Source: Streptococcus sp. Marseille-P6264 (GTDB taxonomy: Bacteria > Bacillota > Bacilli > Lactobacillales > Streptococcaceae). Taken from it: a stretch of DNA of 64,000 bases. The position numbers were made by a program, and so were the translations under genes. Shown piece after piece: positions 21,166-23,030 of this stretch. Below the pieces are notes generated by a model. The model searched no databases. It saw only the letters and a program-made list of their open reading frames with translations, and was not told the origin of the DNA. Numbering within the stretch: position 1 is the first letter of the stretch; every line of letters starts with the position of its first letter. The DNA is taken from positions 1-64,000 of the forward strand of contig NZ_CABPTO010000007.1 of the NCBI RefSeq assembly GCF_902460355.1. Reading direction: 5' to 3'.

Positions 21166-22398
21166 TTATACACTCTGGAGGTAGGCTCGAACCTCTGCAA
21201 TAAAATAGAGTGAGCCCGTTACAAAAAGAATTTGATCAGCCGTCTGCTTTTGTTTGAAATTCTTAATAAAGGCTCTATAATCCGCCACATAATCAAAGTC
21301 CGCAGCTTCTGCCTGCCCCACAGATTCCCCATAGTCAAAGCTGGTCACCGTCACCTGAACCTCCGGCAGAGCCTCCTGCAAATAGGCCAGCATACCGCTA
21401 TAATCCTTGCGCTTCAAAGCTCCAAACAACAGGCTGCATGTCTTGCCCTTCTGTCCCTTAATAAACTCGACCAGACGCGCCAAAGCTGGTAAATTATGGG
21501 CACCGTCCAGATAGATATTCGGGCTAATTTCCTCTAGCCGCCCCGCCCAATGGGTCTTCTGCAAAGAAGAAGGAAGCATAGAAAAATCAATTTCCCAGCT
21601 CATTTGTTTCATAAAAAGCAGAAAAACCTGCAAAGCCAGCGCTGCATTTTCTTCTTGATAAACACCCTGGAGTCCCAAGATTAAATGCGATAAAAGAAGA
21701 TCTTGATTCTTAAAAGAACCATCAGAAAACGAAAAATCTCGCCCGTATTCATACAAATCCAAGTCCAAACTTGCTGCTCGCTGTTCACAAACCTGACGAG
21801 CCTCCTCCGGCAAGGGACCAATGACTGCAGAGCGACCGCTCTTGAAAATGCCAGCCTTTTGCTCCGCAATTGCTGTAAGCGTCTGCCCCAGCGTTTCCTG
21901 ATGATCCAAGCCCACCGATGTCACCACTGCAACTTGCCCATCCAAGACATTGGTCGTGTCCAAGAGTCCGCCAATTCCCACTTCGATGAGAGCCAGATCA
22001 ACCTGCTCCTCTCTGAAATAAAGAAAGGCTAGCAAGGTCAAAATTTCAAAATAGGATAGCTGGTCGTGCGTCTTGACCAATTCTCTCTCCATCTCCTGAA
22101 TCTGCCGCCCCAAGCGAACAAAATCAGCATCCGAAATTGGAAATCCATTGATACAAATACGATCATGAATGCTGACCATATGCGGAGATGTAAAGCTGGC
22201 TACCTTTTTCCCTTGATCGGCAAATAGATTCCGCATAAAAGCAATGGTAGAGCCCTTGCCATTCGTTCCCGTCACATGAATGACTGGATAAGCCCGTTCA
22301 GGATTCCCCAGCAAATCTACCGCTCTCTGCATCCGTTCCAGACCTGAACGAAAGTTTAAGCCAATACGACCGTTCAACCATTTTTCAATTTCATTCAT
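21166..22398 (-). CDS. folC: Folylpolyglutamate synthase / dihydrofolate synthase
   Basis: A 410-residue Mur-ligase-fold enzyme that adds glutamate to folates (and possibly to dihydropteroate). It shows HVTGTNGKGSTIAFM (P-loop, residues ~41-55), SPHMVSIHDRICING, EVGIGGLLDTTN and LDGAHNLPAL. I place the start at the ATG at 22398 (AGGA 6 bases upstream), one codon inside an in-frame GTG. It is preceded by a hairpin plus T-run only about 20 bases before the start and, further upstream, by a four-unit terminator array, so its transcript must start within or read through these. Confidence 0.92.
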   Translation of the reverse strand: MNEIEKWLNGRIGLNFRSGLERMQRAVDLLGNPERAYPVIHVTGTNGKGSTIAFMRNLFADQGKKVASFTSPHMVSIHDRICINGFPISDADFVRLGRQIQEMERELVKTHDQLSYFEILTLLAFLYFREEQVDLALIEVGIGGLLDTTNVLDGQVAVVTSVGLDHQETLGQTLTAIAEQKAGIFKSGRSAVIGPLPEEARQVCEQRAASLDLDLYEYGRDFSFSDGSFKNQDLLLSHLILGLQGVYQEENAALALQVFLLFMKQMSWEIDFSMLPSSLQKTHWAGRLEEISPNIYLDGAHNLPALARLVEFIKGQKGKTCSLLFGALKRKDYSGMLAYLQEALPEVQVTVTSFDYGESVGQAEAADFDYVADYRAFIKNFKQKQTADQILFVTGSLYFIAEVRAYLQSV

Positions 22399-22418
22399 CA
22401 CTTTTCCTACATAAAAAG

Positions 22419-22460
22419 AGAAGCGAAGCGGACTTCAAATGTGAATCACCACTCGCTTCT
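22419..22460 (-). terminator. Terminator-like hairpin in the folC leader
   Basis: On the minus strand AGAAGCGA and TCGCTTCT form an 8-bp stem followed by CTTTTTATG just before the folC ribosome site. It is an intrinsic terminator by shape, placed upstream of the gene. It may end transcripts from the DUF1292 side or attenuate folC. Confidence 0.5.
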
Positions 22461-22529
22461 CGCTTTTCTATTCTTCGTAAAGGAACTAGCTGTGGCCAAG
22501 CTAAGATAAGTTCTCAAGCTGGCTGATTT

Positions 22530-22720
22530 TCTAGTTTCTAGGTTCAGGCTAAAAAGGTCCCCCGGACCTTCCTCGCTTTCTAGTTTTCAGGCTCGGGCTA
22601 AAAAGGTCCCCCGGACCTTCCTCGCTTTCTAGTTTTCAGGCTCGGGCTAAAAAGGTCCCCCGGACCTTCCTCGCTTTCTAGTTTTTAAGCTCGGGCTAAA
22701 AAGGTCTCCCAGACCTTTTT
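22530..22720 (-). repeat. 49-bp tandem repeat of terminator hairpins (four copies)
   Basis: Four units with an exact 49-base period (AGGT begins at 22555, 22604, 22653, 22702). Each carries, on the minus strand, AAGGTCC-x3-GGACCTT followed by TTTT, an intrinsic terminator. The unit nearest the DUF1292 gene has two changes that keep the stem paired (AAGGTCT-x3-AGACCTT). The two middle units are identical. The array fills most of the folC-DUF1292 gap. There are no spacers, so it is not a CRISPR array. Confidence 0.9.
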
Positions 22721-23030
22721 ACTCCTCCATAAAGCTGTTGAAGACTTCTTCAATCATATCCCATTCTGCATCAGAGTCTTCTGGGATTGGCTCCAATTCG
22801 CCTTCTGTTCCGTCTTCATTTTCTGTAAATGAGTAAGCTTGGATTTCAACTTCGCCGTTCTCATCTTCTTCAGCATTGACCGGTACCAAGAGTACGTAAT
22901 TTTTCCCAAACTCTTCTTTGCCATCAATCGTCAAAAGAATTTCAAATAAATTCTCGTTACCTTGCTCATCTACCAAGGTAATCAATTCAGGCTGTGCCTG
23001 TTCGTGGTCATGATTATGATCGTGTGCCAT
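22719..23030 (-). CDS. DUF1292 family acidic protein
   Basis: A 103-residue, very acidic cytosolic protein. It starts with a histidine/aspartate-rich head ([11 protein letters not shown]) and contains the DUF1292 core [20 protein letters not shown]...[19 protein letters not shown]...YSFTEN. The family (YrzB-like) is conserved in Firmicutes next to ruvX and ireB, as here; its function is unknown. The His-rich start suggests metal binding, but that is speculation. The stop codon runs directly into the first terminator hairpin of the 49-bp array. Confidence 0.88.

Follow-up and report, generated by a model that had tools for sequence, protein, structure and literature searches.

A tandem array behind yrzB in a Streptococcus genome as the probable local expansion of a dispersed, mobile stop-codon repeat

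Background

How four copies of a 49-nucleotide unit came to lie directly behind a conserved gene, and what they might do there, is the question raised by the stretch of Streptococcus DNA analysed here (64,000 nucleotides of one contig, hereafter the window). On its minus strand the genes run, according to Pfam matches, in the order ireB, ruvX, yrzB, array, folC. The yrzB gene (DUF1292; 22719-23030, minus strand; PF06949, E = 3.6e-14) is followed directly on its 3' side by the four units (22523-22717, minus strand), beyond which lies folC, a member of the Mur ligase family and the next co-directional gene (21166-22401, minus strand; PF08245 and PF02875). As the window's DUF1292 protein is 100% identical to YrzB of three S. 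cristatus strains, the organism is very near that species. A sequence-only reading had taken the units for tandem transcription terminators of the upstream operon, with a copy number that could vary between strains and tune read-through into folC. We consider it probable, instead, that the array is the local tandem expansion of one member of a repeat that is dispersed throughout Streptococcus, is mobile and is associated with stop codons.

Results and discussion

Architecture of the array

Tandem Repeats Finder placed the array at 22528-22717 with a period of 49, 3.9 copies, 94% matches and a score of 324, the window's three further rows scoring only 40-46. A covariance model (R1), built from 15 sequences with window unit 1 among them, placed four units on the minus strand at 54-73 bits. 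The unit next to the gene is unit 1 (22669-22717, 70.4 bits; 22669-22721 with the stop codon); units 2 (22620-22668) and 3 (22571-22619) carry both hairpins described below, are identical in sequence and score 73 bits each; unit 4 (22523-22570, 54.2 bits), at which the array ends, retains an intact first hairpin and a diverged second one. The array is thus real, but the description of a 49-base unit repeated exactly four times does not hold, for the copies amount to 3.9, the second half of unit 4 has diverged and the units are unequal. The recent local expansion postulated by the same reading is borne out by the identical middle units.

The general unit is of about 50 nucleotides and consists of a near-perfect palindrome with a triloop (hairpin A, 11-12 bp when complete), with a core of the GGTCC-GGG-GGACC type, followed about 6 nucleotides downstream by hairpin B. 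In the latter, an outer stem of 6-7 bp, in which a tandem G.A mismatch is frequent, is combined with an inner stem; an AAA loop and a 3-nucleotide bulge are common. In window unit 1, hairpin A (TAAAAAGGTCT-GGG-AGACCTTTTTA) begins with the TAA stop codon of yrzB (22719-22721, minus strand), which forms the outer end of this first hairpin; its stem is hence 11 bp and includes the stop codon, rather than the 7 bp initially proposed. Read on the minus strand, unit 1 has GGTCT-GGG-AGACC where the other units have GGTCC-GGG-GGACC, a paired change from C-G to T-A in the A stem accompanied by a few other base differences. The paired change noticed from the sequence therefore stands, as one of many in the family.

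Covariation in both hairpins

Both hairpins of the unit covary. For hairpin A, 81 yrzB alleles (80 named loci and the window) were anchored by the position of the stop codon alone, with L061, L108 and L109 given anchors of their own in the yrzB analyses. An 11-bp palindrome that includes the stop codon (at least 9 positions paired, 3-nucleotide loop) is present in 78 of the 81, and all 11 positions are paired, G-U counted, in 77; the alleles lacking it are L035, L049 and L109, the last failing the test with its own anchor. Ten different 5' arms occur at this stop codon, each with its own partner (the TGATACAGTCT arm is found in 19 alleles), and of 858 pairs 855 are Watson-Crick; shuffles, in which relatedness is disregarded, gave 626 on average and 685 at most. 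This evidence is robust as regards the matched arm types; related strains inflate the pair counts.

A count of 261 A cores gave TCC/GGA in 129 cases, TCT/AGA in 59 and TTC/GAA in 29, with about 28 mixed. This count required at least three of four pairs, so that pairing was built into the selection, and includes about 15 likely false cores (TAG/TTA and similar), the first-hairpin counts being cleaner. At 52 array starts the base before the TRA stop also goes with the one after the palindrome: the two were T-A in 7, A-T in 11, C-G in 1, G-G in 29 and G-C in 4, with no other combination; the base before TRA matches its counterpart for T, A and C only, G with G being unpaired. L124, L129, L134 and the second L123 cluster were excluded from this count, and some places enter it twice.

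For hairpin B, units were gathered by core-to-core spacing without reference to that hairpin. The unit alignment was restricted to 49-nucleotide units, a joint alignment of 49- and 51-nucleotide units misaligning B. In register, 74% of the cells in the B columns of 43 distinct 49-nucleotide units are paired, a share that falls to 22-34% on sliding by 1-3 positions; for 43 distinct 51-nucleotide units the corresponding values are 95% and 30-51%. Two adjacent B positions of the 49-nucleotide class are G.A in 28 of the 43 units and A.G in 23 of the 43, that is, a tandem G.A mismatch, and in the 51-nucleotide class the outer stem is paired in nearly all sequences. The outer arms form many matched pairs, such as CCAACTC/GAGTTGG, CCAGTTC/GAACTGG and CTTACG/CGTAAG. 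AAA is the commonest loop (218 of 429 parsed, stray matches included), and on the 3' side bulges are most often of three bases. We do not argue for a kink-turn in hairpin B, because the G.A pairs lie two base pairs away from the bulge.

The paired change in the window need not mean selection on that copy, since the TCT/AGA core is a common unit type. Pairing could even be kept altogether without selection, if template switching within a hairpin (quasipalindrome correction) or the swap of a whole unit type altered both arms at once. The ten arm types at a single orthologous stop codon, with an almost always matching partner, and the predominance of matched cores among the 261 point in this direction, whereas the roughly 28 mixed cores and the decayed arms at nadE, described below, indicate that stepwise change occurs too. 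We give such one-step change a substantial chance, if somewhat less than an even one; it concerns how pairing persists and is compatible with the mobile-repeat explanation.

Dispersal in the genus and the order

In the window's own genome, a search with the 193-nucleotide array DNA returned no match besides the array itself, and the covariance model found one further full unit and several weak ones. Weak model matches also lie inside an array of palindromes (L116, G000:C1:619127-619335), which we take to be BOX-like. Across the genus the array DNA was matched in 156 of 197 genomes and the covariance model in 51 of 58; one genome had as many as 64 scored units, a lower bound given that scoring covered a fraction of the candidates. 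Across the order Lactobacillales, 17 of 118 genomes gave a match, 16 of them of the same genus, so that 2 of 42 genera were represented; the sole match outside Streptococcus among these 118 genomes was a single weak one in one genome (2.9e-5). Phage and plasmid collections yielded no blastn match of the 193-nucleotide array at E 0.001.

The units stand 3' of many unrelated conserved genes, among them rpoD, recA, gatB, era, gpmA, rplT, atpC, ilvC and nadE, as named by eye from the C-termini. At the sufB stop codon (likewise named by eye) of the window's own genome there is a single A-like palindrome (L118, G000:C6:123401-123446).

Register with stop codons

Many of these units are sense-oriented, with a TRA stop inside the left arm of hairpin A, exactly at the end of the gene. 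Among 47 array starts drawn from the best matches, a sense ORF of at least 60 codons has its stop exactly 4 nucleotides before the A arm (position -4) in 37; this set leaves out L118 as weak, and L124, L126, L128, L129, L148, L150, L151 and the second L123 cluster as repeat places or later units. When the sample was widened to 40 starts in five genomes, the stop lay at -4 in 18, a lower share that counts against such seating, and at -6 or -7 in 4 more; random positions on the same 40 loci have a sense stop at -4 in 48 of 20,000. Thirteen of the remaining 18 starts are of one unit type (TGAGAGTAAAACA or TGGGAGTAAAACAGTTTGGG units), mostly within a composite repeat: when 12 loci were aligned (11 of those 13, and L196), ten shared a longer composite repeat on both sides of the unit, with ends that resemble inverted repeats, L207 sharing the right side only and L196 neither side. 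This MITE-like composite has AACTTTCC...GGAAAGTT ends, an optional internal module and one unit inside, at about 1380-1720 of the ten loci (L203, L210, L212-L214, L216, L221, L223, L225 and L229).

The nadE stop codon could be compared in 29 of 30 genomes, L261 being unreadable. At least 9 of 11 positions are paired in 13 of them (L260 being borderline), another palindromic element stands in the same register in 4, neither type is present in 2, and 10 have decayed-looking units by eye, the window's own genome being among these less clearly. The other element (TGAGACAGAAATCGG...GTCTCACCC.CGC) occurs in L234, L235, L244 and L245, and a related form of it follows yrzB in L035; mosaics of this element with the units were seen by eye, for example in L237 and L241. 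In L022 and L027 the position expected for the ribosome-binding site of the gene downstream of nadE, past the final unit, is taken by the 3' arm of hairpin B (GCGAGG).

Insertions into transposase genes

The unit is, or was, mobile. This follows from three sites, distributed over two transposase genes, at which a single unit is present as an insertion of 50-51 bp and for which empty, intact alleles exist elsewhere. An ISL3 transposase gene (PF01610, 5.5e-47) is found in copies with a unit at a first site, at a second site, at both and, in many cases, at neither. Over site 1 the reading frame is 314-432 amino acids long in six copies in which both sites are empty (L166-L170, L174) and 29-121 amino acids long in six with the site-1 unit (L115, L156-L159, L164). 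The net gain between fixed anchors is 51 nucleotides at site 1 (59 vs 8 bases; 6 filled, 7 empty) and 50 at site 2 (74 vs 24 bases; 5 filled, 8 empty). The third site lies in an IS200-like tnpA gene with a Y1 match, which is uninterrupted in L175 and L178 and which in L179 and L181 ends ...KYIQD* at a unit that supplies the TAA, again with a net gain of 51 nucleotides. The gains at site 1 and site 2 were taken without L174 and L156, respectively, as the anchor pattern did not fit these copies. Because the intact transposase gene must be ancestral, the units are insertions and the empty copies are not losses. The events number at least three, and not thirteen, as filled copies at one site may share descent. 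No target duplication was seen at the three sites by eye, in the alignment and the sequences, and by the same inspection 0-7 target bases were replaced. The insertions lie in other mobile elements; at gene ends the comparison yielded no clean same-species pair of empty and filled alleles.

A Y1 transposase is present in 32 of 58 genomes, and unit number does not follow it: G020, G024, G028, G029, G030 and G037 are rich in units and have none. Co-occurrence across the 58 genomes does not support this enzyme as the mobiliser, and the analysis yielded no mobilising enzyme. The idea that the unit is the native end of an IS200 element was likewise rejected, the 30-bit matches beside tnpA being insertions inside tnpA.

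Alternatively, selection could be maintaining the unit as a functional, structured RNA, such as a 3'-UTR element that binds a protein, and recombination rather than transposition could have spread it. The strong covariation in both hairpins, the common AAA loop, the bulge and the tandem G.A pairs would suit such a role; yet units interrupt transposase genes and sit antisense in an IS, those at nadE look decayed by eye in several genomes, and the 18-28 kb part of the window has no Rfam match at gathering scores. We regard this reading as unlikely, if deserving of some weight.

Terminators and the yrzB-folC interval

That the units are intrinsic terminators, evolved locally and tuning read-through into folC, is less probable still. 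The idea has its attractions: each window unit has a GC-rich stem and then five T, though the T-run is partly paired; the array lies directly 3' of the operon and upstream of the co-directional folC; of the 78 first hairpins at the yrzB stop codon, 58 show a run of four or more T; and promoter-like sites are absent from the minus strand between yrzB and folC (22402-22718), so that folC may depend on read-through. As stated, however, the reading as tandem terminators is not supported. The same units follow many unrelated genes across the genus; the other 20 of those 78 have no such run; and 71 of 81 loci possess a separate hairpin with a T-run in the interval from array to folC, as against 49 of 405 versions of these regions after dinucleotide shuffling (the interval was given a fixed end in L059, L062 and L066, where the first 1200 bases contain no folC motif). 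A terminator scan of 20-26 kb returned 8 sites, against a shuffle mean of 5.1, and placed none within the array.

In the window this separate hairpin lies at 22413-22467 (minus strand; -23.9 kcal/mol, z -3.52), is strong, is followed by UUUUU and abuts the folC ribosome-binding site; being bulged, this S. cristatus hairpin is missed by the scan. From its predicted fold it is likely the real terminator or attenuator, and possibly an attenuator of folC. It also appears in the whole-region centroid, which retains the hairpin of unit 1 together with two located at the folC end of the array or past it; the first of these two begins near 22535, inside unit 4. In the whole-region minimum-energy fold the units pair with each other. 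Unit 1 folds at -16.1 kcal/mol. The middle units supply counter-evidence to hairpin A, in that units 2 and 3, folded in isolation, are predicted to prefer another structure, and 136 of 200 shuffles fold at least as well. On account of the T-run, separate-hairpin and folding results, we interpret the units of the array as hairpins of the 3' UTR, located downstream of the stop codon and ahead of the real terminator, where they might still confer a putative weak termination or protection of the 3' end.

Copy number among strains

The expectation that copy number differs between strains was confirmed by genome comparison, since S. cristatus has 1 to 4 copies at yrzB: four in the window, three in L031, two in L032 and L034, one in L033 and L036, and in L035 an array interrupted by another element. 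The S. pneumoniae alleles L105 and L106 have 2-3 and 8-10 units, the ranges depending on the counting, and L049, from S. intermedius, has none, the sole such case among the 80 named loci; these are the best 80 of 264 and hence lean towards relatives of S. cristatus. An assembly artefact, arising from short reads over a tandem repeat, might be suspected from the identical middle units and the draft state of the genome (13 contigs), but is highly improbable given that independent assemblies show arrays of 1 to about 10 non-identical units and that arrays also occur in one-contig genomes such as G191.

Comparison with known repeats

The closest analogy is with REP/BIME sequences (GTAG- and CGTC-tagged, RAYT-associated), which are likewise short, extragenic, dispersed palindromes found in mosaics and tandem arrays; the units, too, are dispersed short palindromes that form mosaic arrays at gene ends. 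For GTAG REPs it is reported that the ends often supply the adjoining ORF with its stop codon (PMC3733652), and REP copy number is usually over 100 per genome (PMC2817692), as against up to 64 scored units, a lower bound, in Streptococcus. Unlike REP/BIME, the Streptococcus unit comprises two unlike hairpins in one fixed orientation over about 50 nucleotides; it lacks a GTAG or CGTC tag, the arrays starting by eye with ..GGAGTRAAA, ..GATTAAA or ..AAATAAA; and its number does not track the presence of Y1 transposase in the 58 genomes.

Among streptococcal repeats, SPRITE resembles the units as a terminator-like hairpin near gene 3' ends, but is described as an 18-bp duplex with a mean GC of 28.1% and AAAA/TTTT ends, found almost only in S. 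pneumoniae and S. mitis (PMC3049150). The units have stems of 11-12 bp and a GC mostly of 0.3-0.63, and are genus-wide and tandem; size, composition and host range thus exclude SPRITE as their identity. Stre-1 is listed as a 45-bp family marked G and is therefore unlikely to be this repeat (PMC2267715). The D39V annotation lists BOX, RUP and SPRITE as pneumococcus-specific repeats (PMC6212727). BOX, like the units, is modular, variable in tandem number, folded and streptococcal; the boxA-boxB(n)-boxC architecture is its own, the two having been compared by description only.

The EFAR elements of Enterococcus faecalis (Venditti et al. 2007) are reported to be palindromic mosaics with two stem-loops, which use stem-loops as insertion sites and delete bases of the target. 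The unit model gave one weak match outside Streptococcus in the 118 genomes of the order. EFAR has been named among MITEs (PMC3733652). Classical MITEs have terminal inverted repeats and target-site duplications, and by eye no duplication was seen at the three insertion sites. The literature that we searched contains no description of the present family; most subscription papers lay outside its scope, so an earlier description may exist.

Conclusions

The comparisons establish dispersal, covariation, register with stop codons, insertion and variation in copy number. Under the explanation that we favour, of a dispersed and mobile stop-codon repeat expanded locally, the unit would spread in two ways, through infrequent insertions that depend on its hairpins and as a passenger of IS and MITE-like elements, and an insertion would persist where the TRA within the unit provides a gene with a stop codon or takes the place of the existing one. 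Once seated, a unit could duplicate in place by slippage or unequal recombination, a process that may have given rise to the identical units 2 and 3 of the window. In the transcript the units would fold into hairpins of the 3' UTR, with a possible role in stabilising the 3' end or in weak termination, and the main barrier before folC would be the separate hairpin at 22413-22467.

More tentatively, and with rather less confidence than we attach to the origin of the array, we suggest that these genus-wide mobile units of about 50 bp, with an in-frame stop in their palindrome, may be a previously undescribed kind of portable gene 3' end. Amplifying in place into arrays of shuffled units, they might act as a fast-changing 3'-UTR dial on housekeeping genes (rpoD, recA, gatB, era, nadE, yrzB and others, for the most part named by eye) in both commensal and pathogenic streptococci. 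If so, streptococci including the pneumococcus (L105 and L106) would carry a repeat class that the D39V annotation does not name, one located at housekeeping-gene stop codons and variable from strain to strain. Such a class would offer a natural test of how a 50-bp hairpin moves and how pairing is kept during sequence change, as well as of whether the number of 3'-UTR hairpins alters the expression of folC and other genes; the units may also serve as a marker for strain typing.
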